A stretch of DNA of 64,000 bases. Origin: Clostridium pasteurianum DSM 525 = ATCC 6013. Lineage in GTDB: Bacteria > Bacillota > Clostridia > Clostridiales > Clostridiaceae. The notes under the pieces were generated by a model that saw nothing but the letters and a program-made list of their open reading frames with translations, ran no database searches and had not been told where the DNA came from. Within the stretch, counting starts at the first letter, position 1. The number at the start of each line of letters is the position of its first letter. Made by a program: the position numbers and the translations under genes. Shown piece after piece: positions 22,704 to 39,174 of this stretch. The stretch covers positions 3,998,384 through 4,062,383 of the forward strand of contig NZ_CP009268.1 in NCBI RefSeq assembly GCF_000807255.1, given 5' to 3'.

Positions 22704-23478
22704 TTATAAATCTATCTTTTTCTCAATAATATAAGAAGTTAATATAAAAAATACTATAAATATAATGACTTGAAATATAACATCTACTGTATTAAGAGGT
22801 ACACCATTTATTATTAATGAAGCAAGGTCACTATCCATATTACTGCTGTTAATAGCATTTGTCCCCTGTAAAAAACCAAATATCTTTACATAAAAAGTCT
22901 GATGAAATACTTTGTCTATAATTTTATAACTTATAAGTCCTTGTAGTGTAGTTATTATAGCAAAAATTATAAATGCAGCAAACTTTCCCATTCTCTTTTT
23001 AGCTATTGCAAGTCTAGTGACAGATATAGAGAAATAAATTGTCATTAATAAAGCAATAAAGCTTGTTAAAAATAAAATCGCTATATTTAACCATTTAATT
23101 TTAATTCCCACCATATCCAATGACATTTGTAAGTTTGGTATATCATAAAGAAAATGCTCCAGCTATACACATAGCTATAACATAGAAAATCGAAGAAATT
23201 ATAAGCTTGGAACCTAGTATAGAATATCCCCTCTGCGGTAAAGTATAAGTTAAATATCCTTTATCATCATATAAGTCCTGTCCAAATAAATTTATACACC
23301 ATACTAATAAAGTAACTCCAATGGCCACTCCTATAAAAATTGAGAGCATTACAAGAAGTTCTGGTTCCCAGTTGTTCATTCTGCTGATAAGCCCTAGATT
23401 AAGAAGTATTATAAGTAAAATCAATATCCCAAAGGATTTATATTTTCCTACAAGTTCATATTTTATAAGTTTTAACAT
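22704..23478 (-). pseudogene. ABC transporter permease (YtrA/GntR-linked module), split by a 1-base shift
   Basis: Two adjacent minus-strand frames (23478-23143 and 23126-22704) join into one permease of about 257 residues if a single A is removed from the AAAA run at 23151-23154 (TTTT in the mRNA). The junction then reads CIAGAFLYDIPNLQMSLDMVG without a stop. The start MLKLIKYELVGKYKSFGILILLIIL is typical of ABC-2-type permeases with six membrane segments. The gene follows its ATPase with a one-base overlap. The break could be a real mutation or a sequencing error; the rest of the protein shows no other damage. Confidence 0.75.
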
Positions 23479-25577: not shown

Positions 25578-25614
25578 AAAGTAGTCTATTTCAAATGAAT
25601 GGACTACTTTTTTT
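25578..25614 (+). terminator. Terminator of tRNA-Pro
   Basis: AAAGTAGTC (25578-25586) pairs with GACTACTTT (25602-25610) followed by a T run. The truncated IstB frame ends directly at this structure. Confidence 0.8.
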
Positions 25615-26086
25615 ATTTCATATTATATTTATAAAAATAATGTGTGCTAGCTATCGCTAACTCGTTTAAGAGTTCTGGGAGACGAATGTATTTTGTCGTA
25701 TAGAAGTTTCTACAAGCAGCAATTCCAAAAGCGCAGCTTATATATGTTTTGCCAGCACCAGAAGCACCTAAGATGACTATATTATGTTTCTCTTGGATAT
25801 AATTACAGGTAGATAGCTTTGTAATCAATGCTTTGTCAAGTTTCCTATCTGCATGATATTCTATATTTTCGATACATGCATCATTAAAGCTAAATTCAGA
25901 TTTTCGAATAAGTTTGTTTAGCTTATTATTCTTCCTTCTAGACCATTCTGTATCGATTATAAGCCCAAAACGTTCTTCAAAGGATAGGTCTTTGAAGGAG
26001 GAATCAAGTAACTGATTGCGATAGGATTCTGCCATAGCAGTAAGTCTTAATTCATTAAGCTTTGAAACAGTAGATTCATTTATCAT
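25613..26086 (-). pseudogene. istB: istB of the older IS21 element, 3'-truncated
   Basis: This 157-residue frame starts MINESTVSKLNELRLTAMAESY and includes the Walker A segment ILGASGAGKTYISCAFG. IstB helpers are usually about 250 residues and have a Walker B and sensor region after this. Here the protein stops soon after RLPELLNELAIA, so it is cut at about two thirds. The ATG overlaps the end of the istA-derived frame (GRNSQ stop), the normal istA-istB coupling. Confidence 0.85.
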
Positions 26087-26149
26087 TGTGAATTCCTCCC
26101 ATAGTAATCTGCATCTCTAGTAAATCCAAAATCCTCAGATTCTTTATTT

Positions 26150-26420
26150 CCATGTATGAGGTCTAAAACCCCCGACTTTAGTTGGGCAGCTTTAGCAAAT
26201 CCGTAGGATATAGATAAATAACAATACTTTGGTATAATAAAATAGGGTGGTATAGTTGGTATATTATAACAAAGGAAGCCATACAGTGCATAAAATAGAA
26301 TATCATATAGTATGGGTAACAAAATATAGATATGAGATGTTAAATAAAAGTATGAAAATAAGATTAATAGAATTAATAAAGCAGAGATGTGACGCAAGAA
26401 ATATAAAAATATTAAAAGGA
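26150..26420 (+). mobile_element. tnpA: Left part of an IS200/IS605-type element with a tnpA N-terminal fragment
   Basis: From TTG 26256 the plus strand encodes LVYYNKGSHTVHKIEYHIV, then WVTKYRYEML and ELIKQRCDARNIKILKG, the well-known N-terminus of Y1 (IS200-type) transposases. The HxH and Tyr catalytic regions would lie downstream but are absent, because the frame is cut at 26420 by the next element. A hairpin-rich left end with CCCCCGACTTTAGTTGGG lies at about 26169-26187. The left boundary is only approximate. The right half of this element is missing from the window. Confidence 0.75.
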
Positions 26421-26533
26421 TGTATTGTATAAACTATAACTGTGCCAAATAATAATTAAAAATCTGTCCACTAGTATTTTCCAAACCTTTTATACAAACA
26501 ATATTTAGGTAATAATATTTTGTATAAGAGGAA

Positions 26534-28096
26534 GTGCAGAGGGTGATAGATTTGAATCAAAAACAGGATATTATATTAAAACATATTAGAGAAGGTAAAT
26601 CTCAAAGACAAATAAGTAAAGAAACAGGAATATGTAGAGAGACCATAAGAAAATATGTTAGAGACTACGAAAATAAGCTTATTGAAGTAAATGATGACTT
26701 AGGTGAAATAGACAAAATTAATATTATTAATGATATAACATCTAAACCTAAATATATTTCATCTCCAAGAGTTAAAAAGGCTTTAACCGATGAGGTTATA
26801 GAAAGGCTTAAACAATTTTTAAGAGAGAATGAACAGAAACGATTAAGTGGATTATCTAAACAGCAGAAGAAAAAAATTGATATGTATGAGGTTTTGCTTG
26901 AAGAAGGCTATAATATCAGCTATCCATCTGTGGTAAATGCTGTAAACAGCATAGAAAGGAAAAAACGCGAAGCGTATATACGTCAGGAATACTCTCCAGG
27001 AGATATAGTAGAATTTGATTTTGGAGTAGTGAAATTACAAATGAATGATGGCACTATAAAGGAATTTCAATTGGCAGTATTTACGGCAGCTTACAGCAAT
27101 TATAGATGGGCTAGATTATTTCCAAAACAGAATACAGGATGCTTTTTAGAAGCCCATGCTTCATTCTTTAAACATATTAAAGGTAACCACAGAACAGTTG
27201 TTTATGATAATACTAGAGTTGCCGTAGGTAAGTTTGTAGGGCATACAGAAAAAGAACCAACAGATGCTCTTCTAAAGCTGTCGCTATATTATAAATTCAG
27301 ATTTAGATTTTGCAATGCTTACAGTGGTAATGAAAAAGGGCATGTAGAGAGAAGTGTAGAATTTATACGAAGGAAAGCATTTTCAAGAGAGCATACATTT
27401 ATATCATTAAATGAAGCTAACGCTTATCTTGATGAAGTGCTAAATAAATTAAATTCAAGAACCTTATCTAATTCAAATAAGTCACCGTTTCAACTATTAG
27501 ATGATGAACGAGAGTACTTATTACCGGATATGCCTCTATATGAAACAGCTTCTATTTCAGATCTAAGAGTAAATAAATATTCAACGATTATGGTAGATTC
27601 CTGTTATTACTCTGTACCAGATGATTATGTAGGCACAATGGTACGATGTAAGATATATACCACTAAAATTTTAGTTTTTTATAATGAAAAAGAAATAGCT
27701 ACACATGATAAAGTTTATGGTATGAACTTGTGGCATATAGATATTATGCATTATTCTAAAACGCTTTTTAGAAAGCCAAAAGCACTTATTAATAGCACAG
27801 CCTTTAATCAAATGGATAATGTGCTAAAAGAAATTTACTCTAAATATTTTAACAGTAATGACCGAGATTTTGTGAAACTTATTGAATTAGTTGGTAACTA
27901 TGGTCTTGTAACTATTAATAATGCCATCAAAAATCTACAGGAAGTATGCCCAACTAATATAAGTATTGATAAAATTGAATTTATCTGTTCTAGAAAGGAT
28001 GATCCTAAAATTATATATCTGGAAGATCATGATGATGAAATTATGAATAATTCACTTAATATTTTAAATGAATTTAACAGTCTTCTAAAGCAGTAA
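26534..28096 (+). CDS. istA: IS21-family transposase IstA
   Basis: This 520-residue protein starts at GTG 26534, or less likely GTG 26543. It has an N-terminal helix-turn-helix (ILKHIREGKSQRQISKETGICRETIRKYV) and an RNase H-like integrase core with D in DIVEFDFG, D in VYDNTRV and E in KGHVERSVEFI, the DDE triad. The C-terminal region is typical of IstA. It catalyses joining of the excised element to target DNA, with IstB as the ATP-dependent target selector. The frame is intact and probably active. Confidence 0.93.
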   Translation: MQRVIDLNQKQDIILKHIREGKSQRQISKETGICRETIRKYVRDYENKLIEVNDDLGEIDKINIINDITSKPKYISSPRVKKALTDEVIERLKQFLRENEQKRLSGLSKQQKKKIDMYEVLLEEGYNISYPSVVNAVNSIERKKREAYIRQEYSPGDIVEFDFGVVKLQMNDGTIKEFQLAVFTAAYSNYRWARLFPKQNTGCFLEAHASFFKHIKGNHRTVVYDNTRVAVGKFVGHTEKEPTDALLKLSLYYKFRFRFCNAYSGNEKGHVERSVEFIRRKAFSREHTFISLNEANAYLDEVLNKLNSRTLSNSNKSPFQLLDDEREYLLPDMPLYETASISDLRVNKYSTIMVDSCYYSVPDDYVGTMVRCKIYTTKILVFYNEKEIATHDKVYGMNLWHIDIMHYSKTLFRKPKALINSTAFNQMDNVLKEIYSKYFNSNDRDFVKLIELVGNYGLVTINNAIKNLQEVCPTNISIDKIEFICSRKDDPKIIYLEDHDDEIMNNSLNILNEFNSLLKQ

Positions 28097-28179
28097 AAGA
28101 TGTTTATTTTGTTTTGGGTATCTTAAAAAAATCCGTTAGGATTGAGTTTACAAGATTATATATGTATAAGGAGAAAAGC

Positions 28180-28368
28180 ATGATTGTTACTAAAAAATAT
28201 ATAAATGACTTAAGAGAACATTCATTTTTAAATATATCGAAAGATATGGAAATTTTTATTCTTGAGAAGTTTGGCAAAGAGCCAGAAGCAGACGAAGAAG
28301 GATATGTTTATGAATATACAGAACAAGATATTTATGAACAGATAAGGAAAATACTTAGAGCTAAGTAA
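28180..28368 (+). CDS. Small accessory protein of the IS21 element, unknown
   Basis: This frame of 62 residues starts MIVTKKYINDLREHSFLNIS, with AAGGAG 6 bases before ATG 28180, and ends DIYEQIRKILRAK. It lies between istA and istB in the same direction. The product is charged and helical, with no membrane segment. I do not recognise it. The good SD and its place in the operon make it likely to be translated, perhaps as part of the transposition complex. Confidence 0.6.
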   Translation: MIVTKKYINDLREHSFLNISKDMEIFILEKFGKEPEADEEGYVYEYTEQDIYEQIRKILRAK

Positions 28369-28453
28369 GTACTTAATTTTAATCTACTACTTGAAAATAT
28401 CTTTTTTAACCATATATATTGTGTTTCAAAAAAACATTCAAGGGAGTGACTTT

Positions 28454-29224
28454 ATGGATGCTAAGAATTCATTTATTAGTGATATAAAAACATATGCTAA
28501 AATAATGAAGCTGGGAGTTATAAAAAGTGATATTGAACAGTCAATTGAAGATGCTAACACTAATAACCTTAGTTATGAGGAATTCCTATATGGACTTCTT
28601 CAAAAGGAATGTGATATAAGAAAGTATAATTTGACTCAAAGCAGAATTAGAACAGCCAGTTTCCCCTATAAAAAATATTTAGAAGATTTATCAATTGAAG
28701 ATTTACCAGCTGACGCTCAATTGAAGTTAAAGCACCTTAGCGGCTTAAAATTCATAAAGGACGGGCAGAACGTAATTCTTTCTGGAAACTGTGGAACAGG
28801 GAAAACACACATTGCTATCGCATTAGGAATAAAGGCATGTTTAGAAGGATATAAAGTATTATTTACAACTGTACCTCTTTTTATTACACAATTAAAAGAA
28901 TTAAAATCTACTAAAAGTTTAAGAGGATATCAAAATAAACTTTCTAAATATGATTTAGTTATATTAGATGAATTTGGATATATATCTTCTGACAAAGAGG
29001 GGGCGGAGCTCCTGTTTACTAATATCTCTTTAAGAGCAGGCCAAAAATCCACAATAATTACAACTAATCTTTCTTTTGACAGGTGGGGTGAAATATTTGG
29101 CGATCCTGTGATGACTGCTGCAATGACCGATAGGTTGACTCACAAATCTTACGTTGTTAACATGAATGGAAATTCTTATAGAATGAAAGAAACTAAGGCT
29201 TGGTTAGACACTCTTGAAAACTAA
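28454..29224 (+). CDS. istB: IS21-family helper ATPase IstB
   Basis: This 256-residue AAA+ protein has Walker A SGNCGTGKTHIAIALG, Walker B YDLVILDEFGYI and the sensor segment STIITTNLSFDRWGEIF, with AMTDRLTHKSYVVNMNGNSYR near the end, all canonical for IstB/DnaC-like helpers. ATG 28454 is preferred because AAGGGAGTGA precedes it. Full length, so the element has an intact pair. IstB assembles on target DNA and activates IstA. Confidence 0.93.
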   Translation: MDAKNSFISDIKTYAKIMKLGVIKSDIEQSIEDANTNNLSYEEFLYGLLQKECDIRKYNLTQSRIRTASFPYKKYLEDLSIEDLPADAQLKLKHLSGLKFIKDGQNVILSGNCGTGKTHIAIALGIKACLEGYKVLFTTVPLFITQLKELKSTKSLRGYQNKLSKYDLVILDEFGYISSDKEGAELLFTNISLRAGQKSTIITTNLSFDRWGEIFGDPVMTAAMTDRLTHKSYVVNMNGNSYRMKETKAWLDTLEN

Positions 29225-29272
29225 TTTCCATCTTTTGGTGGAAAGGATTTTAATTATATTTTGGACTGAAAA

Positions 29273-30594
29273 TTATGTATAAAATACACCTTGCTGTTCT
29301 ATCTTATGCATGGAAAGAATGGCCTTTATAACTATAGTAGTATTAGGACCAATACTCTTTGCCCATGAAATAAATCTTTCTGCATTCCAAGTAATATATT
29401 TTTTATGGTCTTCAGGTATGTGTTCTTCAACAGTACTATATTGGCCTTCTCGGCCGTGTAATTTGGGGTGGGAACAAATACGATGATTGTTATAAAAAAC
29501 TTCAATTATATTACGTGTAATTCGTGCATCTACTTTATGTTTAATATATTCATAAGGAACACTATAGTTCATTTTCTCCACATTTATATGGTAATTAAAT
29601 TGAACTGTGGCAATTTTCCATGTAGATAATTCATATTGAGTTTTTGGTAACGGAATAAGTGCTAATTTTTCTTCTTCAAGAAAAGTACTTAGCCTGCTTC
29701 CAGGCTTCTTTTGGAATGGCTTATTATTGAATTCATATAATTTTGAGCTTATAGCTTCATTCAATTCTCTAAGTGAAAAGAATTTTTGATGACGAAGTGC
29801 TACAATAATCCAAGTGGAGATAACACCTACAGTGCCTTCGGCATTAGGCTTATCTTTGGGTTTTCTAACACGAGCTAGAATTACTGCTGTTCCATAATGC
29901 TCAGCCATTTCATGATAAGTTTTATTTATAACAGGAGTATACCAAGATGTTCTTTACACACCTGTTTTCAAATTATCCGGAATAAGAATTCTTGTAACTC
30001 CACCAAAAAACTTATAGGCATTAATGTGGGCAGTAATCCAACATTCCTGATTTGGGGATGTAAAAGCCTCAACGTAAGCATATTGACTAGATGATAACAC
30101 GGCAACAAAAATGTAGGCATTGATAATATCACTAGTATTTCTATCAACAATAGGTGATGTTTGGCCTGCCCAATCAACTTCTAATTGCTCACCAGGTTTG
30201 CGGTTGATATGCATTGTAGCTTTTGTTACATTGGCATAATCGCGATAATATTTGCAAAATTGAGTATACATAAAAGGGACTTCATTGCTCAACCTGTATG
30301 CTTCGCAATACTCATTCCAGAGTAAGCTAAGGGTTACACCACTTTTAGCCATTTCCTTGTGGATATACTCACAGTCTGGAAGTCTTCTTGAAGAAGAGAG
30401 AATTCGTTGTGGAAAAAGTTTTTAATCAACTCATCATCTGACATATCTTGAGGTAATGGCCATCCAATTCCACAAGCTTCAGCACGTTTTAAAGTCCTTG
30501 ATACGGTGTTGCGAGAACACTCGCAACTTAATGCAATACTACGCTGACTAATACCTTGATTATACAATCGTAGTATTTCTCTATATCTGGTCAT
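29273..30594 (-). pseudogene. istA: istA of the older IS21 element, broken by a frameshift, a stop codon and an insertion
   Basis: The minus strand encodes an IstA N-terminus (MTRYREILRLYNQGISQRSI, 30594-30334), then in another frame WNEYCEAYRLSN...EVDWAGQ (30352-29954). The K-T-G-V stop R-T-S junction at about 29950 is an in-frame TAA, and the frame then resumes with MAEHYGTAVILARVRKPKDKPNAEGTVG. DDE residues are recognisable (VDWAG, IPDNLK, NAEGTV). The frame ends KIEQQG, where the newer IS21 element starts at 29288. No function expected. Confidence 0.88.
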
Positions 30595-30772
30595 AATAAT
30601 ATGACCTCCTTTGAATTTATTTACACTAAAAATAGCTTATAAACTCATTATTGACAAAAAATATGTAGGTGAATCACCCAGCGTTAAGGTGGCTCAAATT
30701 ATTCCGTGAAGGTGGCTCACTTTCAACATATCAAGTGCTCTAACAGAGCATATTATTCACTATTTTGTCAAA

Positions 30773-30798
30773 TTCCACACAATTACCATTGTGTGGAA
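30773..30798 (-). terminator. Terminator at the end of the bacteriocin/Yip1 transcription unit
   Basis: TTCCACACAAT (30773-30783) pairs perfectly with ATTGTGTGGAA (30788-30798). On the minus strand the stem is followed by TTTGAC. It lies 42 bases after the Yip1-type gene. Confidence 0.75.
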
Positions 30799-30839
30799 CT
30801 CATAATCTTCAATTTTAATAATTTTATAATAATCTCTTA

Positions 30840-31517
30840 TTATTTTTTTAACATTAAAGGAACTACTACTATACATATTAATATCAAAGCTAAAATAATT
30901 ACTATTATTGCACTTTTCTTTTTAGATATCTTTGCTACTGTAGAAATTCCTATAGCCATTAATACCCATTGCCATATAGTGAATATATCATATGATTTTA
31001 ATATTGTATTAATATAATTAGGATTAGTTTGTGCTGAAATATTCATCGGTTTTTTACTTATAAGCATATATAAAATTTTTATTATTAAACCTATAACTGT
31101 AGCCATATAAGCAGTAGTATAAATTGATACTACCTGTCCATATTTAATTTTGCCTTTTGCTGCTTTTATGAATAACATATATACAAAAGAAGCTATAAAT
31201 ATTGTTATTAGAGCAATTATTATAGTTGTTATTATTATTACTGGTATAGAAGAGATAACACTAGTGGTACTCTTTACTATACTAGCTTGATCAGAACTCA
31301 TATTTTTAGTTAAATCATCATAGTATTTTTGTAAATACGGTTTAGCCATAATGCTCTGTACTGCCCCATACATAGCAGTTATTATAAGTATTATTAAGAG
31401 TTTAAGTGCATAAAATCGTTTTTTATTATATTGAGCAAAAATTTGGATTGGATGGATAAAAAAATTCTTTAATTTTTCAGTAAACGTTATATTTTCAATA
31501 TTATTTGTATCTTCCAT
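30840..31517 (-). CDS. Yip1-domain integral membrane protein
   Basis: This protein of about 225 residues begins MEDTNNIENITFTEKLKNFF and has the Yip1-like start IHPIQIFAQYNKKRFYALKLL. Five hydrophobic segments follow, with the central IKYGQVVSIYTTAYMATVIGLI stretch. I use ATG 31517 rather than 31544 because AGGAGG lies 9 bases before it. Bacterial Yip1 proteins are poorly understood membrane proteins often beside ABC exporters. It is the last gene of the run that starts with the bacteriocin gene; a role in self-protection is possible but unproven. Confidence 0.75.
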   Translation of the reverse strand: MEDTNNIENITFTEKLKNFFIHPIQIFAQYNKKRFYALKLLIILIITAMYGAVQSIMAKPYLQKYYDDLTKNMSSDQASIVKSTTSVISSIPVIIITTIIIALITIFIASFVYMLFIKAAKGKIKYGQVVSIYTTAYMATVIGLIIKILYMLISKKPMNISAQTNPNYINTILKSYDIFTIWQWVLMAIGISTVAKISKKKSAIIVIILALILICIVVVPLMLKK

Positions 31518-31548
31518 AGAAAATAACCTCCTTAAAATTATCATATAT

Positions 31549-31926
31549 TTAATGTATAGTACTATTGTTATTAATCATTCTTTGTTTTACCATATAAATT
31601 ATTTCATCATTTGAAAATCTTAAATTTATAATATTATTAATAAAAATTTCAGTAATTTTCTCCAAACTATCAAGTTTTAATTTATTTATTATATAATTAT
31701 TTGATGTTACAAAATATCCTAATCCTTTTCTTTCTACATAAATAATTTCATCTAATTTAAGTTCATAATAAGCTCTAGAAACAGTATTTATATTGACTCT
31801 TAATTCATTGGCCAATTTTCGTATAGACGGAAGCTTTTCGCCTGATTTAAGTTTCCCATTTATTATATTTGATTTTATGTATTCACTAATTTGAATATAA
31901 ATTGGTATACTTTTATCAAAAATCAT
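31549..31926 (-). CDS. GntR-family regulator, YtrA subfamily
   Basis: This protein of about 125 residues consists of one winged helix (SIPIYIQISEYIKSNIINGKLKSGEKLPSIRKLANELRVNINTVSRAYYELK) and a short tail without a ligand domain. ATG 31926 is preferred over GTG 31938 because the AAGGTG site precedes it. It lies 29 bases after the permease of the MacB-like transporter and 31 bases before the Yip1-type gene. It resembles the regulator at 24175 and probably controls the ABC/bacteriocin genes next to it. Confidence 0.88.
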   Translation of the reverse strand: MIFDKSIPIYIQISEYIKSNIINGKLKSGEKLPSIRKLANELRVNINTVSRAYYELKLDEIIYVERKGLGYFVTSNNYIINKLKLDSLEKITEIFINNIINLRFSNDEIIYMVKQRMINNNSTIH

Positions 31927-31955
31927 AAACGACAACACCTTTTTCTCCTAATATT

Positions 31956-33143
31956 TTATTTATATATAGCTTTAATTGGATTTAAGTTTGCTGCTTTATA
32001 CGCTGGAATAATTCCAAAAATTATTCCTACAGTAATAGATGTAATTGAAGATCCTAGTAATGTTCCTATTGTTAAAACAGGTTTAAATGGTAAAAATAAT
32101 CCTATAATTACAGATATACCATAACCTATACTAATTCCAAGAATTCCACCAAGTACAGTAATAAAAATAGATTCAATTAAAAATTGTAATAATATAGTCT
32201 TGGGTTTTGCACCTATGGCACGTCTAATTCCTATTTCTCTGCGTCTTTCTGTAACAGATACATACATTATGTTCATTACTCCAATTCCGCCAACAAATAA
32301 TGAAATTCCTGATACAATGGCAATGAATAGAGTTAATCCACCTATAATTTTTTCTATAGATTTTGTTATTGCTTGAGGATCAGCCTGAACATATTTTCCT
32401 TTTAAATCTGGATGAAGAATTTTTAATTCCTTTTGTATAGATTTAAATACAGAATTTGTATCATATCCTTGCTTAACCTTGATATCTATTGAAGAAATTG
32501 ATGTATCATTTTCAAAAAGTGTCTTTGCAAAAGGAGGAATATAATCATAAGATGTAATAAGTCCAGTAGCATCTTTTTTTTGAATACCAATAACTTGAAA
32601 AAATTCACCTTTTATATTAATGCCCTTACCAATTGTTTGTTTTAAATCTGTTCCAAATAAAGAATTTGCATGATCTTCAGTAAGAATAATAACATAGTTC
32701 TTAAAGCTATCATCTTCCTGTGTAATTCTCCTTCCATAAATTAAATTTAAATTTTGTTTATCATATGTATTCATCGTTAATGATGTTTGTTTATCAAAAA
32801 ATTGTGCATTTTCATTAATACCTAAAAGATTTGCTAATCCTCCAGTACTCTCACTAATTTTTTCTACTCCATCAATATTTTGCAAATCATTAAAATCACT
32901 ATGTTGAAATGGTGTTGTCATGGATACAGAGTTTAAATCTTCTGGTTCAAAATTAATGGTAATTGTATTGACACTTACATTCTGTGTAGATTGATTTACT
33001 TGTGCTTTTAATCCAGCACCAATAGAAAGAATAGTAACTACAGAACTTATTCCAATTATTATTCCAATCATAGTTAAGAAAACTCTAAATTTATGAGCAC
33101 GTAAACTTAAGAAGGCGCTATATATAAGTTCAAATAAATTCAT
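31956..33143 (-). CDS. MacB-like ABC transporter permease (FtsX-type)
   Basis: This 395-residue protein has one N-terminal membrane helix (about 15-45, KFRVFLTMIGIIIGISSVVTILSIGAG), a large extracytoplasmic MacB-PCD domain (about 45-260) and three C-terminal helices. The FtsX motif NIMYVSVTERRREIGIRRAIGAKPKTILLQFL is complete. It works with the ATPase and membrane-fusion protein upstream. In AS-48-type circular bacteriocin loci a comparable transporter (as-48EFGH) gives extra immunity by export. The ATG overlaps the ATPase stop by 4 bases. Confidence 0.9.
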   Translation of the reverse strand: MNLFELIYSAFLSLRAHKFRVFLTMIGIIIGISSVVTILSIGAGLKAQVNQSTQNVSVNTITINFEPEDLNSVSMTTPFQHSDFNDLQNIDGVEKISESTGGLANLLGINENAQFFDKQTSLTMNTYDKQNLNLIYGRRITQEDDSFKNYVIILTEDHANSLFGTDLKQTIGKGINIKGEFFQVIGIQKKDATGLITSYDYIPPFAKTLFENDTSISSIDIKVKQGYDTNSVFKSIQKELKILHPDLKGKYVQADPQAITKSIEKIIGGLTLFIAIVSGISLFVGGIGVMNIMYVSVTERRREIGIRRAIGAKPKTILLQFLIESIFITVLGGILGISIGYGISVIIGLFLPFKPVLTIGTLLGSSITSITVGIIFGIIPAYKAANLNPIKAIYK

Positions 33144-33826
33144 ATTTCATCCTCCTTACAAAATGCTCCATCTTTTAAATAAACACAACGTGTTGCATAT
33201 TTCCTAAGGTCTTCATCATGAGTAACCATAATAATTGTTTTATTTTGTTTGTTTAAATCAACTAATAAATCAATTATTTGAAGACCCGTTTTCCAATCAA
33301 GGGCACCAGTAGGCTCATCAGCAAGGATAAGATCAGATTGAGTAACAAGAGCTCTGGCAATAGAAATACGCTGCTGCTGCCCTCCTGATAACTCATTAGG
33401 ATAATTTTTGAATTTTTCTTCTAATCCAACATCTTTAAGGCTTTTCTTAATCATTTCAATTCTTTTACTACGGGTATATCCTCCATGATATAATAAGGGT
33501 AGCTCTATATTCTGAGCTATTGTCAATGACTCAATTAAGTGAAATTGTTGAAATATAAATCCGATATGATTATTTCTAAAAACAGATCTATCAACTTCTT
33601 TTAGTTTAGTTACATCCTGTCCTTTAAAGTCATAACTTCCTTCATTAAATTCATCAAGTAAACCTATAGTATTTAAAAGCGTTGTTTTTCCACTACCAGA
33701 TTTACCCATTATGATAACAAATGAGCCTTGCTCCACACTAAAATCAAGTTTATTCAAAACATCATAATGATCTTTGCCTTGTTTATACCATTTTGATAGT
33801 CCCTTAATTTTCAGTAGTTGTTGCAT
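33140..33826 (-). CDS. MacB/LolD-type ABC transporter ATPase
   Basis: This 228-residue protein has Walker A GKSGSGKTT, Q-loop QFHLIESL, signature LSGGQQQRISIARAL and Walker B LILADEPTGALD, all canonical for the MacB/LolD clade. It overlaps the MFP gene by 23 bases and the permease by 4, so the three are translationally coupled. It energises the tripartite-like exporter in the bacteriocin cluster. Confidence 0.93.
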   Translation of the reverse strand: MQQLLKIKGLSKWYKQGKDHYDVLNKLDFSVEQGSFVIIMGKSGSGKTTLLNTIGLLDEFNEGSYDFKGQDVTKLKEVDRSVFRNNHIGFIFQQFHLIESLTIAQNIELPLLYHGGYTRSKRIEMIKKSLKDVGLEEKFKNYPNELSGGQQQRISIARALVTQSDLILADEPTGALDWKTGLQIIDLLVDLNKQNKTIIMVTHDEDLRKYATRCVYLKDGAFCKEDEI

Positions 33827-34954
33827 TAATTGTAGCTCCTTCCTTCATTGATGATGTTGGCTTACTAATAATCTTATCTCCAAAGTTTACCCCACTTTTT
33901 ACTTGCATATATGTATCATTCAACTTTTCAGTAGTAACTTCAACTTTTTTCAACTTGCTATTATTAACAACCCATACGTAATTTTTACTATTTTCATTTA
34001 AAACTGATGAAATTGGTATTTTAGGCAATTGATTTTCAGCAGTAGTAGTTCCTTGAACATGAAAACCAGGATGAAAACCATATTGTTTATCAATATCTAT
34101 ATATACAGGATAATAAGACACATTCGCTGATGAAATGCTTGATGATTGTGTTGCAGACGCTGTACTTGTACTTCCTTGTGTTATAGATGCTTGTATAGAT
34201 TCAGTCCCAATTGAACGAATAGTACCGTTAATATCTTGAGTTGTTCCATACACAGTAATTTTAACTGTTTGACCTGTTTTTAACTTTAATACATCTTTCT
34301 CACTAACATTGGAAACTACCTGCATTTTAGGATCAGTTAAAGTTAAAATAGACTTATTTGTATCTGTATTAGTAATTGCAGTTAAAGAAATATTGCCATC
34401 AAAAGGTGCAGTAATTGTAGTATAACGATTATTCTTAATACTATCTAACTGTTTTTTTATGCTTGCCTGTTGCTGATTATTTTGATCAAGTTGTGATTGT
34501 AAAGAAGATTTTGTGGTATTAGTTGTAGTTGTAGTATTAACAGAACTATCTATTTGTGCTTGCTGTACCTGTTGTTGTGCCTTAGAGATATCGGTTAATT
34601 GTTGCTGAATTTGCTTATATGTAGATCGAAGATTTTTTAATTGATCCGATAAATTATCATATTGCTGAATTACCGTATCATTTTTATATGTAAATAATGC
34701 CTGTCCTTTTTTTACTTGTTGTTTATCTGTAACATTTATTGTATCGATAGTCCCTTTAGTTGTATCTTGCATAAAATTTTGTTGCTGTACATACTGTATT
34801 TCTCCATCTAAATATACATTTTGAGGTGATGAAATAGTATATACATTAGCTTGCATATCATTTTTTTTTCACTTTCTTTTTGGAAAGTAGTACACCCAAC
34901 AAAAATTAACAAAATTACAATACTAGTACCAATACTTTGAAATATTTTATTCAT
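33804..34954 (-). pseudogene. Membrane-fusion (HlyD/MacA-like) lipoprotein of the bacteriocin cluster, frameshifted at a 9-A tract
   Basis: The 350-residue frame from 34856 (MQANVYTISSPQNVYLDGE) has a biotinyl-lipoyl-like segment, a Gln-rich coiled coil (about 60-120), and a barrel domain with VKITVYGTTQDINGTI. Upstream, in another frame from ATG 34954 with a good GGAGG, is a lipoprotein signal MNKIFQSIGTSIVILLIFVGC. The two join in frame if the A run complementary to 34861-34869 had 10 instead of 9 residues. Without the signal the protein would stay in the cytoplasm. It is either a real loss, a slippage switch or a sequencing error. Confidence 0.8.
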
Positions 34955-34980
34955 GTATTCCTCCAATATATATTATTTTC

Positions 34981-35145
34981 TTATTTATTTTTTAATACAA
35001 TTTTAACAATGATCATAATTATTATCCCTATTATTATAGATATTAGCAATGATTTAACTATATTAATATGAGTTTTAGTTATAAGTTGTACAAATATTAC
35101 AGCAGTTATTATTGGTGCTATTGATTCTAAAATTTTATTTTTCAT
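34981..35145 (-). CDS. Small cationic hydrophobic protein, candidate bacteriocin immunity protein
   Basis: This 54-residue frame begins MKNKILESIAPIITAVIFVQL, has two membrane segments joined by a Lys/His loop (TKTHINIVKS), and ends IVKIVLKNK. Its ATG lies inside the end of the ATPase gene (11-base overlap), so it is probably translationally coupled. Size, charge and position right after the ATPase match the immunity proteins of circular bacteriocin loci (CirE, As-48D1 and CclI types). I infer the role from these features; sequence similarity was not tested. Confidence 0.7.
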   Translation of the reverse strand: MKNKILESIAPIITAVIFVQLITKTHINIVKSLLISIIIGIIIMIIVKIVLKNK

Positions 35146-35818
35146 ATATTCTACCATCCTTCATTAAATTTAATATATAATTTTCAATTTCTTCTGAACT
35201 TTTAAAATTATTGGTAACATTTATTATGCCATTTTGTGTCAAATATAATATTTCGTCACTTAATTTAAATGCTATATTTGAAATATGAGTAGAAAAAATT
35301 ATTATACTATCTTTAATATTATGAAATATTTGGCTTATATTTTCTATTGTAATTATATCAATATCTACTAACGGTTCATCTAATATTAAAACTTTTGGTT
35401 TTGATATTAAAATGATTATTATTAGTAACTTATATTTCATTCCTTTTGAATAGGTATTTATAATATTATCCTTAAAATCTTCTATTTCAAATTTTTTAAA
35501 TAAGCTATCTATTTCACAATCATCTATTTTAATATCTTTAAATTCAAGAGTTGTAATAACGAATTCTTTTCCAGTTAAAAGTTCAAAGGGTATAGGATTT
35601 TCTCCTATATACATGATTTCATCTTTTAAATCTCCATAATCAATATATCCATTATCTGCTTTATTAAATCCTGATATTATATCTAATAAGGTAGTTTTAC
35701 CTATACCATTTTTACCAAATATACTATATATTTTCCCTAATGTAAATTTATAATTTATATTTTTAAAAAGAAGATTCTCATACTTTTTACTTAAATTTAT
35801 TAATTCCAAGTTAATCAT
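35135..35818 (-). CDS. ABC transporter ATPase of the circular bacteriocin cluster
   Basis: This 227-residue ATPase has Walker A FGKNGIGKTT, an ABC signature in the variant form NTYSKGMKYKLL, and Walker B KVLILDEPLVDID, followed by the switch His in FSTHISN. It is rich in Ile, Asn and Lys like its neighbours. It lies directly after the SpoIIM-type gene (7 bases). In known clusters this ATPase (CirD, As-48D type) works with the large membrane proteins in secretion, and possibly circularisation, of the peptide. Confidence 0.88.
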   Translation of the reverse strand: MINLELINLSKKYENLLFKNINYKFTLGKIYSIFGKNGIGKTTLLDIISGFNKADNGYIDYGDLKDEIMYIGENPIPFELLTGKEFVITTLEFKDIKIDDCEIDSLFKKFEIEDFKDNIINTYSKGMKYKLLIIIILISKPKVLILDEPLVDIDIITIENISQIFHNIKDSIIIFSTHISNIAFKLSDEILYLTQNGIINVTNNFKSSEEIENYILNLMKDGRIYEK

Positions 35819-35825
35819 TCCTTTA

Positions 35826-36326
35826 TCATTTTAATTTCCATTTAAAAAAAAAGATTACAAAAGATTCTATAAGTGCTGAAATGAATATTAAAATAGTTCC
35901 TAAAAAAAACAAATATTTTTTATTTTTTATTTGTATATTCTTAATATTTATTCCGATATATGTCGCAATGGATAATCCTAATATTTCAGTCATTCCATGA
36001 GGTATCGTTCTTATAATACATGATACAACTCCATAGTGCTCCATAAATATCAATGCAATACCAGAATACATAATAGAATTATAATAAAATAATATATATG
36101 GTAATTTATTATTTATTAATCCTACTAAAATAATAGCTACATATACTAAGAAGTTATTTATTAATATTTTAGTAAAATTTGACATAGCTATATTATCGAT
36201 AATATCTTTTGAAAATTTATTATTTATGTCTATAAAAAGTACAAATATAGTAGTAAATACTGGCAAAATCCAAAAAGATAAATCGATAATAAAAATTTTT
36301 TTTATTTGTTTATTTTCCAATTTCAT
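35826..36326 (-). CDS. SpoIIM/DUF95-family membrane protein of the circular bacteriocin cluster
   Basis: This 166-residue protein has four or five membrane segments. It contains the family landmarks NNFLVYVAIILVGLINNK followed by YNSIMYSG, and IRTIPHGMTEILGLSIATYIGI (the LLPHGIFEIPA-type motif of SpoIIM). DUF95 proteins are a constant part of circular bacteriocin loci (AS-48C, CirC and CclB types), where they are needed for maturation or secretion. This is not the sporulation SpoIIM: there is no sporulation context. It is the strongest marker of the cluster type. Confidence 0.85.
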   Translation of the reverse strand: MKLENKQIKKIFIIDLSFWILPVFTTIFVLFIDINNKFSKDIIDNIAMSNFTKILINNFLVYVAIILVGLINNKLPYILFYYNSIMYSGIALIFMEHYGVVSCIIRTIPHGMTEILGLSIATYIGINIKNIQIKNKKYLFFLGTILIFISALIESFVIFFFKWKLK

Positions 36327-36334
36327 ATATACCT

Positions 36335-37693
36335 CTAAATAAAAAATAATATTAAGAATTGTATTATATATAACCCTCCAGAAATTTTAGATATAATATC
36401 ATCTTTATCTCTATTTGAATATTTAAGCTTTAATCCCCTATGATATATTAAAGAATTAATTAAAATATTTAATAAGAATAACATAATACCTATAAAAATA
36501 TATAATAAGGATTGCAAAGAAAATTTATTTATAAAAATCAAACAAATAATGCAATGTATAATTTCTATAGGTAATAATTTTTTAGTAATATGTAAAATAA
36601 CATTATTATTGGATTTAAATAGCTTTATATAATTTAGAAATTTATCTGTTAATAAATATCTTTGATTATAGTGACTAAATAAAAAACATGTACATAAGGA
36701 AATTAATAATGTTTTTTTTAATAATGTAATATTCAATATATTAATACATATCATAATTATTATCATTAAATTATATTTTGGTAAAATTTCTTTTTTAAAA
36801 AAATCAATTATGATTAGTTTTTTATAATTTATTAATTTTCTTAATGTTTTATTATTTAAATTATATATTTTATAATTATTAGACTTGCTAAATTCTTTAG
36901 CATCCTTAAAATTACCTAATATATCAAAATAATAAATAATTATATTTATTATTAAAAAAATTATATTAAAATAAAAAGAATTATAATTTGACATATATAA
37001 ATAATATTTTAAATATAAATTATTAAAATTATTGAAATTTATATTTTTTATATCTAAACCTAATATAGCTTTCTCTATTTTTATTAATATAAAAATAGTT
37101 ATAAGAAAAAATATTATTACAATATTTTTTATATTATTTTTTTTATTTGGTAATATAAAACTCATGTATATTAATTTTATTCTATTTATAGTTATATAAG
37201 TAATTAAACTAAAAAAATTAAATGCAAAAAATATATCGACATAATTCTTTTCTTTAATAAGTCTATGTTTTAAAACTAAATATGTAATTAATATAAAAAA
37301 CAATGCTAACATTATGTTTATCGTACTATAAATAATAAGTTTATTAATATTTTTTTTTCTTTGATTATTATTGTATATACCACTTGTTAAAAATAATATC
37401 AATTTGTATTTAAAATCATATGCTATAACATTACTTTTATATATAAATGTTAAAAAAAATACATATGAAATTATTATTACTGGATAAAAATAATTCAATA
37501 AATTTTTATCTAATATAAAAAACAAAAACATGAATATTGCAGTTCCTAAAAAAGTCAAAATAATAATTGAAATTTTAAATATATCAAATATTTTTTTATT
37601 AATAATAGGTATTTCTTTTAATAATTTAAAATATATTTCTCTATATTCTAGTATTTTTCTGTATTCTAGTATCTTTTTATATTCTTTTACCAC
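36335..37693 (-). CDS. Large multi-spanning membrane protein of the circular bacteriocin cluster
   Basis: This 452-residue protein has about eleven hydrophobic segments separated by short Lys/Asn-rich loops and is very rich in Ile, Asn, Phe and Tyr. It begins MVKEYKKILEYRKILEYREIYF, containing an ILEYR repeat. I recognise no catalytic motif. Proteins of this size and topology (CirB, As-48B types) always sit next to the structural gene in circular bacteriocin loci and are proposed to take part in leader removal, circularisation or export. The call rests on context and topology. Confidence 0.75.
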   Translation of the reverse strand: MVKEYKKILEYRKILEYREIYFKLLKEIPIINKKIFDIFKISIIILTFLGTAIFMFLFFILDKNLLNYFYPVIIISYVFFLTFIYKSNVIAYDFKYKLILFLTSGIYNNNQRKKNINKLIIYSTINIMLALFFILITYLVLKHRLIKEKNYVDIFFAFNFFSLITYITINRIKLIYMSFILPNKKNNIKNIVIIFFLITIFILIKIEKAILGLDIKNINFNNFNNLYLKYYLYMSNYNSFYFNIIFLIINIIIYYFDILGNFKDAKEFSKSNNYKIYNLNNKTLRKLINYKKLIIIDFFKKEILPKYNLMIIIMICINILNITLLKKTLLISLCTCFLFSHYNQRYLLTDKFLNYIKLFKSNNNVILHITKKLLPIEIIHCIICLIFINKFSLQSLLYIFIGIMLFLLNILINSLIYHRGLKLKYSNRDKDDIISKISGGLYIIQFLILFFI

Positions 37694-37725
37694 TAGAAAA
37701 ACTCCTTTTTTAATTTATTTATATT

Positions 37726-38182
37726 TTAATATTTAACTTTTAAAAAATTAAATCCTATTGAAATCATAATATTTATTAATATATAAATAATTGCAGATTT
37801 TTTTGATATTAGTTCAATTTTAATTAAATATAAATAAAATAAACATTCTATTATTAATGCAAAGGGATTAAATAAAATAATCCAGAAATTATTTATCTTA
37901 GAAAAATATAAAAAAATTATATTTACATCTATTTGTAATAAAAAAAAGTTGAAAAAGATTGATTTTTTCTCTACACTTTTTCCAACAACAAACCTATAAA
38001 TTAGTAAATTAGCACTATAGCCTATTACTACAATAAAAATACATGTTATAGCTATTAGAATACTAGTAAAATATAAAATACCTATTGTAATTTCATTCTT
38101 ATTAATACTATCAATTGCTTCAATAATAGAAATAAAAACAAAAAAGAATAATAGCTATTATTTTACTCTTAATTATCTTCAC
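37726..38182 (-). pseudogene. Third membrane protein of the bacteriocin cluster, frameshifted near its start
   Basis: From GTG 38182, with AGGAGG upstream, the frame reads VKIIKSKIIAIILF. It then meets TGA unless one base is removed from the 6-A run at 38140-38145. The following frame is open for about 135 codons (VFISIIEAIDSINKNEITIG to MISIGFNFLKVKY) with four to five membrane segments and no suitable start of its own. The repaired product would be about 151 residues. It sits between the bacteriocin gene and the large membrane protein, so it is probably a maturation or secretion component. Mutation and sequencing error cannot be told apart here. Confidence 0.7.
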
Positions 38183-38209
38183 AGTATGAACCGCCTCCTA
38201 AAATTAAAA

Positions 38210-38591
38210 GTTGGGGGAACATAATTATTATGTTAAATTAATAAGATCTAAGTCCTGGACTATTTAAAACAACAGATATTCCATATGATATAAAAATTTG
38301 TGCAAGAAACCAAGCTGCATAACCAGGTCCAAAAATAGCACCTACAGCTGCTGCAATACTTGAACCTGCTCTATATGCTCTATATACAGTCCAAGCTATT
38401 TCTAAAACTTTAGTTGCACTAACACCTAAAACAGATCCTATTAATGCTGAACCTGTTATGCTTACTGCTAATCCTATAATTAATACACTTAACGCTATTT
38501 TCCCAAATTCTTTTAAGTTTGATGTTTTAAGACTATTTTTTACAATACTTAATTCCATTTTAAATTCCCTCTTTTATTCATTTCCCCCAAC
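38210..38591. promoter_or_regulatory. GC-rich 10-bp inverted repeat bracketing the bacteriocin gene
   Basis: GTTGGGGGAA (38210-38219) and TTCCCCCAAC (38582-38591) are perfect inverted copies. They lie on either side of the 321-bp bacteriocin frame, in sequence that is otherwise extremely AT-rich. In the mRNA the 5' leader could pair with the segment just before the SD of the next gene. This could stabilise the precursor message and limit read-through or translation of the next gene. Function is inferred. Confidence 0.55.
38238..38558 (-). CDS. Circular bacteriocin precursor, circularin A/uberolysin/AS-48-like
   Basis: This 106-residue precursor has a basic start (MELSIVKNSLKTSNLKEFGK), a hydrophobic leader (about 21-38), and a mature-like part LIGSVLGVSATKVLEIAW (from about L39) ending in LRSY at the C-terminus. 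The pattern LxGxxGVxxxxAxKVxxxI, then AG about 20 residues later and IxxxxGxGxxxxxxxA, resembles circularin A and uberolysin, which also end in an aromatic residue for head-to-tail joining. L39-Y106 gives 68 residues, within the known 58-70 range. Precursor length is close to the 105 of AS-48. The cut site is not certain. The SD is AGAGGG, and a TATAAT-like -10 lies about 55 bases upstream. The DUF95, ATPase and immunity genes downstream strongly support the call. Confidence 0.78.
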   Translation of the reverse strand: MELSIVKNSLKTSNLKEFGKIALSVLIIGLAVSITGSALIGSVLGVSATKVLEIAWTVYRAYRAGSSIAAAVGAIFGPGYAAWFLAQIFISYGISVVLNSPGLRSY

Positions 38592-39174
38592 AATATACAT
38601 TATATCATATCATTATTATTAATAAAAGTAATTTTCATTTATTACAATATACATATTTACTACATAATATATTATAATATTACAAATTTAGTTATATATA
38701 TTAAATAACTATTTGATTTTTAAAAATTATTTTAATTATTTTATTCAATAGATGTGTCATGAAATTCATTTTTCTTGCCATAAAAAAATGAATTTCACAA
38801 AACTACTGTTCTGTGAAATTGAAAATTTTCGCCAATTCAACTTAAAATCCCTTTTAACTTAGAAAATTCATCCACTCAATTAAATGTATAGAGATCAACA
38901 TTTATCTCCATATATATTTCTAAATTTTAAAGTTATATATAAACTTTTACTATATCCTTTACCCTTACAAAATTTGAATTTTCTCATGATATCACATATA
39001 ATAATATTAGATATAAGGCTTATAAAACACTGACTTAAGTATACAATATTAAAAGTAAGGTTAAAATATTAGACATATACGGATTAATATTTTAAGGCTA
39101 TAATTTTATTATCAAACATTAGTTATTTCTTTAAAATTATAGTACTACCTAACAATTAAAAGGAGCTGATTTAA
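38559..39174. other. 616-bp AT-rich intergenic region with a stem-loop
   Basis: This gap separates the divergent bacteriocin and hydrogenase units. A 14-bp stem TGAAATTCATTTTT (38760-38773)/AAAAATGAATTTCA with a short loop lies near 38760-38797, and another GTGAAATT copy follows at 38813. A TATAAT on the minus strand at about 38605-38610 may be the -10 of the bacteriocin promoter; the -35 is weak. I find no convincing coding frame. Confidence 0.5.

Follow-up and report, generated by a model that had tools for sequence, protein, structure and literature searches.

Can a small protein whose sequence matches no known circular bacteriocin be the precursor of one? This question is raised by a gene cluster of Clostridium pasteurianum DSM 525 = ATCC 6013 that lies in a stretch of 64,000 nucleotides (contig NZ_CP009268.1, positions 3,998,384 to 4,062,383 of the forward strand; this whole stretch is called the window, and coordinates refer to it unless another locus is named). 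A sequence-only reading had taken the cluster for a circular-bacteriocin locus with an unfamiliar precursor, and gene content, gene order and homology of the transport genes back this cluster type. We suggest, with a probability of roughly 0.78, that the locus is of circular-bacteriocin type and that its precursor belongs to a new family, which is covered by no model used here; the product would be expected to be circular and to kill. Three observations carry this reading: the gene order, the homologies seen for C, D and the accessory ABC genes, and a precursor family that occurs in three genomes.

Gene order of the cluster

From position 38,558 down to 30,840 all genes are on the minus strand: the precursor gene (A), the membrane protein genes X, B and C, the ABC ATPase gene D, the peptide gene E, an MFP-ATPase-permease set, a GntR-family regulator and a Yip1/YknW-type protein (Table 1). 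The order A-(X)-B-C-D-E-MFP-ATPase-permease on one strand argues for our reading, as does the presence of X-A-B-C-D in two other loci, one on a plasmid of Pseudalkalibacillus hwajinpoensis (NZ_CP156675.1, locus L086) and one in the Clostridiaceae genome G166 (locus L099, also L087). Precursor, SpoIIM/DUF95 protein and ABC ATPase stand side by side, which is the arrangement by which circular-bacteriocin clusters are recognized (PMC8534725; PMC8659200); the agreement is one of gene kinds, the precursor being of a new family. In the 14 loci that were opened for an annotated or PF09221-matched precursor (the match of L059 lies under the PF09221 cut-off), a SpoIIM gene was near the precursor in 13, the exception being L041.

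The 106-amino-acid (aa) precursor open reading frame (ORF) that the sequence-only reading had described was found at 38238-38558 on the minus strand, and the SpoIIM/DUF95 protein, the ABC ATPase, the 54-aa cationic hydrophobic peptide and the MFP-ATPase-permease set follow on the same strand in the order it gave. Two of the three membrane proteins which it had placed before the ATPase are intact ORFs (452 and 166 aa), but the third, between the precursor and B, is split. The MFP is present, but its ORF is devoid of the N-terminal signal, which stands in another frame across an A9 tract, and the regulator and the Yip1/YknW-type protein of the same span had not been named. The AT-richness it had reported is borne out in B to E, with 13-20% G+C, whereas MFP, ATPase and permease (27-31%) are like the neighbouring genes.

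A membrane ORF of the size of X also adjoins the precursor in L086 (178 aa) and L099 (194 aa), where it lies 5′ of the precursor gene, whereas X lies 3′ of it in the window. The window X piece shows no significant homology to these two neighbours, as 207 and 104 of 2000 shuffles, respectively, align equally well.

A precursor family in three genomes

A search with the single precursor sequence revealed no relative besides the own genome (0/57), no plasmid record, no solved chain and no relative among 214 candidate stretches from genome contigs or 16 from viral contigs, and the two- and three-row precursor profiles described below likewise gave none in the viral contigs (47 and 159 stretches). 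When D of the window was compared with 72,556 plasmid records, a single match at E ≤1e-15 was obtained, the Pseudalkalibacillus plasmid (33.6%, 4e-20). There the order is a 178-aa membrane protein, a 108-aa "hypothetical protein" which we take as the precursor, a 486-aa membrane protein, SpoIIM and D. Over 206 genomes of the family a profile of two rows (own and L086) matched 12 other genomes at E ≤0.1 and yielded a third precursor in G166 (E 1.4e-7). Nine of these 12 matches were inspected, with L091, L093 and L098 left out, and only L087, that is G166, reads as a precursor; the frames read at L088, L089, L090, L092, L094, L095, L096 and L097 gave no precursor reading. The order in G166 is X (194 aa), precursor (108), B (460), C (184), D (227), a 97-aa membrane peptide, MFP, ATPase and permease, all of them open. 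In 279 genomes of the phylum the three-row profile matched the own genome only, a result that bounds the rarity of the family loosely, G166 being apparently outside that draw. A tblastn search with the G166 precursor over the same plasmid records returned the L086 precursor as the sole match (E 0.06).

In global alignments 2 of 5000 shuffles were as good as the real pair for own and L086, and none for own and G166 or for L086 and G166. As BLAST alone gives E 3.3 for own and L086 and E 0.29 for own and G166, the case for a precursor family rests on the shuffles, the profile and the position of the genes. The L086 and L099 precursors are 32 and 36% identical to the own precursor and measure 108 instead of 106 aa; like it they have a leader of ~40 aa, an AY-x-AY motif with a following G, an IF/FF motif and an SY/SW end, and they adjoin B, C and D. 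The invariant columns of the alignment include I40, G45, S47, Y59, A61, Y62, G65, F76 and the penultimate Ser. No MFP-ATPase-permease set is listed in the stretch of L086 shown, whose gene table is incomplete.

A decayed copy is present in Clostridium algoriphilum (L012, 2-2933), where the first 45 precursor codons, a B tail running into C and transposon-like genes (IS200/IS605-like by eye) are left. These 45 residues match residues 1-46 of the own precursor (0/2000 shuffles as good), so that leader and core start appear as a conserved unit. Judged by the alignments, the new precursor family is found in three genomes of two classes (Clostridia and Bacilli) plus one remnant. A literature search over titles and the beginnings of abstracts gave nothing recognizable on the locus or on any Pseudalkalibacillus bacteriocin; Table S1 of PMC8659200 and Text S1 of PMC8534725 could still contain an unlisted member.

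Inverted repeats surround the precursor gene in all three loci, with one arm 5′ of the start codon and the other just past the stop (window 38582-38591/38210-38219; L099 5757-5781/6184-6207; L086 5467-5484/5885-5902). The arms are ~360-400 nucleotides apart and differ in sequence from locus to locus. When the duplex energy of the upstream 120 and the downstream 80 bases was compared with 300 shuffles, the duplex was as strong in 0 (L086), 1 (G166) and 17 (own) of them; among 13 other loci L058, which is of known type, gave 0/300 and the remaining 12 between 45 and 295/300. By means of such repeats the two ends of the precursor mRNA could base-pair with each other.

Homology of the processing and transport genes

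The comparison loci were a circularin A-type locus (L025, genome G059), whose precursor we take to be circularin A, two amylocyclicin-type loci (L026 and L053) and an AS-48-type locus (L044), whose precursor record bears a uberolysin/carnocyclin name. The leader MFL and the core VAGALG of the L025 precursor agree with PMC11943950.

Own C is related to the C proteins of L025, L026, L086 and L099 (0/500 shuffles as good in each case), and further relatives are found in a Clostridiales metagenome-assembled genome (L011, a C-D pair, 40%) and in C. algoriphilum. Nine of the 206 family genomes match own C at E ≤0.001, namely the own genome, two strong matches (G093 and G127) and six weak ones; G206, one of the weak ones, was opened and holds nothing of the kind. 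A C profile reaches the C protein of L025 at 2.6e-8, but as a link this is not specific, since 15 other genomes of the phylum (16 places) are reached at E ≤1e-5. One of these places, G486 (L058), is a bacteriocin locus of known type; at the 10 inspected, on the match strand only, no bacteriocin-like neighbour was seen, and five were left out. Own C scores 51.1 bits with the profile of bacteriocin-linked SpoIIM proteins and 26.7 with that of the others, so its profile scores lean to the bacteriocin-linked side; a place outside that group was the second condition that would have told against the sequence-only reading. A first SpoIIM tree, in which own C stood with amylocyclicin-type C (95/86), was dropped because, after nine other SpoIIM rows had been added, two without a bacteriocin link came to lie among them. 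Own C also matched three plasmid records at E 0.2, each at a SpoIIM gene; in L043, the one inspected, a class IIc cyclic bacteriocin gene is adjacent.

Own D is 51% identical to D of L011, 38% to that of L099, 33.6% to that of L086 and 30% to that of L025. Own B is related to G166 B (0/500 shuffles as good) and weakly similar to L086 B (28/500), and has no match in Pfam or NCBIfam. E has the form and the place of an immunity peptide; its similarity to E of L025 (15/2000) and L099 (30/2000) is weak, and a 58-aa reading from 35157 is also open. The own MFP is 33% identical to that of L099 from L099 residue 58 on. The G166 locus in turn resembles L025 in D (36.5%, 2e-31), the accessory ATPase (47%) and the permease (29%, 3e-28), and also in a response regulator (38%), a kinase (31%) and an AgrB-like protein (32%), these three named by eye. 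The regulator, histidine kinase and AgrB-like genes lie upstream of both loci (L099 2327-5062; L025 87-2860), the precursors of which are unrelated by sequence; from the sequences this reads as a shared regulation with an exchanged peptide.

One might object that the SpoIIM-ATPase-B set serves some other export task and that the 106-aa protein, a small membrane protein, has nothing to do with it, given that weakly C-like SpoIIM proteins do occur away from bacteriocin-like genes (the 10 places inspected). We consider this very improbable, since relatives of the precursor adjoin B-C-D in both other loci and the start of a precursor adjoins the remains of B and C in C. algoriphilum.

The precursor compared with known circular bacteriocins

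Several findings weigh against a circular-bacteriocin-type locus. In the profile search that had been named beforehand as able to overturn the sequence-only reading, the precursor has no match up to E 1 to TIGR03651/PF09221 in Pfam and NCBIfam, while all three controls of known type (L025, L026 and L055, the lowest scorer of the 11 known) match both models. We also built a profile from 11 known cores. Left out in turn, each of these reaches 32-93 bits, a score equalled by 0/500 shuffles; the window core reaches 3.0 bits, a score equalled or surpassed by 255 of 1999 shuffles (2000 were made). Next to the last residue the three precursors of the new family have Ser, where all 11 known cores have a hydrophobic residue. 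A single-sequence model of the core has five helices (pLDDT 77.6, pTM 0.49), and no saposin-like chain or clear structural match to it was found; the model is weak and is counted neither way. BLAST scores within the new family are low, as given above. In a tree of 34 SpoIIM rows own C stands among two bacteriocin-linked and two other rows, so that its grouping is not settled. B is not clearly related to known B proteins: 131 and 89 of 500 shuffles are as good in the pairwise comparison with L025 and L026, and against a profile of 11 known B proteins own B scores -34.6 bits, which none of its own 500 shuffles reaches (best -38.9) but four unrelated controls exceed (-13.6 to 0.7), with 2.9% in hhalign; two of the 11 known B proteins also score under zero when left out. 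Finally, X changes frame near a T6 tract and the MFP gene at the A9 tract.

Could the precursor still belong to the circularin A/uberolysin group, having diverged strongly in sequence while keeping the saposin-like fold? This would be compatible with our reading, and we give it a little less than an even chance. A GVS/GIS/GLS motif near the core start of the new family is comparable to the LGIS/LGVQ of known cores, and the five helices of the model would fit. In pairwise comparisons of the own core with the 11 known cores 25-653 of 1000 shuffles are as good, the lowest count being that for L053; for the L086 core only 2/1000 are as good against L055 and 12/1000 against L053, and these two scores are one hint of a deeper kinship, although they come from 22 core-to-core tests. 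Against such a kinship stands the profile-profile comparison: the three-row precursor profile aligns to the 11 known cores with a probability of 1.3% (score 14.1), 2 of 60 column-shuffled versions scoring higher (14.7 and 14.8), whereas five subsets of known cores reach the rest at 97.0-99.1%. Compared with one class IIc core, 60 (own), 1358 (L086) and 601 (L099) of 2000 shuffles are as good, and for class IIc (gassericin A/paracyclicin type, subgroup ii) there is no Pfam match of the precursor, no control having been run for that group. A search in PHROGs gave nothing meaningful. The sequence-only reading had pointed to a pattern LIGSVLGVSATKV...AG...GPG resembling the known family; as the likeness of the precursor to known cores was not above chance in the tests run, this pattern is no evidence of kinship with it.

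A bolder view holds that the precursor family arose apart from every circular bacteriocin described and folds in its own way, although homologous B-C-D proteins cut and close it. We regard this as rather unlikely. If true, the machinery would be guided by chain ends and hydrophobicity alone, whatever the fold, and genome mining with precursor models would overlook an entire class of ring peptides. That such mining can miss loci is already seen from the L086 precursor with its annotation as "hypothetical protein".

The ends of the core bear on whether there is a ring at all. The first core residue is hydrophobic (I40 or L39, if the cut site is placed correctly) and the last one aromatic, Y106 in the window and Y and W in the relatives. 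For closure of the circularin A ring two short hydrophobic residues at the start, an aromatic residue at the end and a hydrophobic penultimate residue are needed according to PMC10028692. The penultimate Ser of all three precursors and the want of core similarity to known rings would suit a machinery derived from circular bacteriocins with a linear product, that is, a leader-cleaved or leaderless-like membrane-active peptide. This we think improbable, as the aromatic C-terminus and the hydrophobic likely core start, ends of the kind that matters for circularin A closure, are kept in all three precursors, and each of the three loci has retained B, C and D next to the precursor gene.

Proposed processing

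For the circular-bacteriocin-type reading the following course may be suggested, which would account for cleavage, ring closure, antibacterial activity and immunity. The 106-aa precursor would be made with a hydrophobic leader of ~39 residues. The leader would be cut off by B, C (SpoIIM) and D, a set also present in circularin A-type and AS-48-type loci, which would then link the exposed first core residue (Ile40 or Leu39) with the aromatic last one, Tyr106, and carry the closed peptide out of the cell; the 54-aa E together with MFP-ATPase-permease would protect the producer. The roles of B-C-D and E are assigned by analogy with circularin A, for which cirABCDE is enough for production in L. 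lactis (PMC9726714). When PMC8659200 and PMC8534725 were written, the enzymes that take off the leader and close the ring of circular bacteriocins had not been identified.

The core start L39 of the sequence-only reading is one of two candidates. We favour I40, because this Ile is invariant in the alignment of the three precursors and because this start would place a Gly at position 6 of the core, where circularin A and AS-48 also have one. The computed masses are 6999.0 (linear) and 6981.0 (cyclic) for I40-Y106 (67 aa) and 7112.2 and 7094.2 for L39-Y106 (68 aa).

Island and state of the locus

The claim of the sequence-only reading that the cluster was acquired by transfer is supported by the flanks, which are nearly continuous in three congeners (L106, L107 and L108; G001 was left out). 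The window positions 25,634 and 39,019 are 165 bases apart in L106, and the nearest matched flank bases are 382 apart in L107 and 248 in L108. Thus, a 13.4-kb island comprising the cluster and IS21-type elements is absent at the same site in 3/3 congeners examined.

Table 1. Features of the cluster and its surroundings in window coordinates
Feature	Position	Strand	Remarks
Island: cluster and IS21-type elements	25634..39019		flank blastn vs L106, L107, L108
Precursor gene	38238..38558	-	106-aa ORF; leader ~residues 1-39, core ~I40 (or L39) to Y106
Putative mature core I40-Y106	38241..38441	-	67 aa; putative cut site; alternative start L39 (68 aa)
X, small membrane protein gene	37726..38182	-	two frames, split near T6 tract
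B, membrane protein	36335..37693	-	452-aa ORF, 13.2% G+C
C, SpoIIM/DUF95 membrane protein	35826..36326	-	166 aa; PF01944 39.7 bits (cut-off 26.9)
D, ABC transporter ATPase	35135..35818	-	227 aa; PF00005
E, cationic hydrophobic peptide, putative immunity	34981..35145	-	54-aa ORF; ribosome-binding site by eye
MFP gene, N-terminal piece	34808..34954	-	other frame; signal/lipobox-like by eye; A9 tract at frame change
MFP body (HlyD/RND_mfp type)	33804..34856	-	350-aa ORF without own signal; TIGR01730 106.1 bits (cut-off 94.9)
Accessory ABC ATPase	33140..33826	-	54% to L099, 41% to L025
Accessory permease, MacB/FtsX type	31956..33143	-	PF12704, PF02687; 51% to L099, 31% to L025
GntR-family regulator	31549..31938	-	PF00392
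Yip1/YknW-type membrane protein	30840..31544	-	PF04893 65 bits; NF052650 84.7 bits, under cut-off 110

The left part of the island holds an open istAB pair of IS21 type (26,534-29,224, plus strand) beside broken transposase pieces (29,273-30,594, minus strand). Over 25613-30594 the open pair lies between broken IS21-type pieces of the minus strand, as if one element had jumped into the other; the piece 25613-26086 reads istB-like by eye. Near the other island edge and upstream of the precursor gene there is a long inverted repeat (38738-38819, 36-nucleotide arms, 72% complementary), which may be a terminator. Just outside the island, at 22704-23478, a gene for a membrane protein, next to one for an ABC ATPase, is broken into two frames, its counterpart in L106 being one ORF; no long homopolymer is seen by eye at this break.

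The frame changes in X and MFP may be due to decay, slippage or sequence error, and they make activity in the window strain doubtful: the locus there may be inactive or active in part, or the frame changes may be sequence errors. That the locus is a decaying remnant without a product in this strain is compatible with our reading, and we hold it to be possible, if clearly on the weaker side of even. Both frame changes are at or near homopolymers, IS21-type elements stand at the edge, and the copy of C. algoriphilum has clearly decayed. On the other hand, precursor, B, C, D and E are open and are the positional counterpart of the sufficient cirABCDE set, and the homopolymer sites make sequence errors or slippage plausible. 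The Pseudalkalibacillus and G166 copies are the better starting material, because X, precursor, B, C and D are open in both.

Comparison with known systems

The circularin A locus and the cluster of the window have the same order A-B-C-D-E-MFP-ATPase-permease, and C, D, the accessory ATPase and the permease are related. They differ in the precursor, which is unrelated by any test used and has a leader of ~39 aa in the window and 3 aa in circularin A, in B, which is not clearly related, and in the additional genes X, GntR and Yip1 of the window. The circularin A and G166 loci both have a regulator-kinase-AgrB-like cassette, whereas none was seen in the window. The amylocyclicin-type (L026, L053) and AS-48-type (L044) loci have in common with the window a long leader and nearby SpoIIM and ATPase genes; however, the precursors of L026 and L053 match PF09221, the own precursor does not, and the penultimate residue is hydrophobic there and Ser in the window.

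The same kinds of genes as in the window are found in the cerecyclin (cyc) locus of the Bacillus cereus group, which comprises a precursor, B, DUF95, an ATPase, a 58-aa immunity candidate, YIP1, a three-part ABC transporter and a regulator (PMC8534725). For the cerecyclin precursor an identity of 34% to the enterocin NKR-5-3B precursor is given (PMC8534725), whereas the window precursor matches none of the known cores compared. A precursor family of different sequence which is served by related C and D proteins offers a natural comparison for what the machinery reads.

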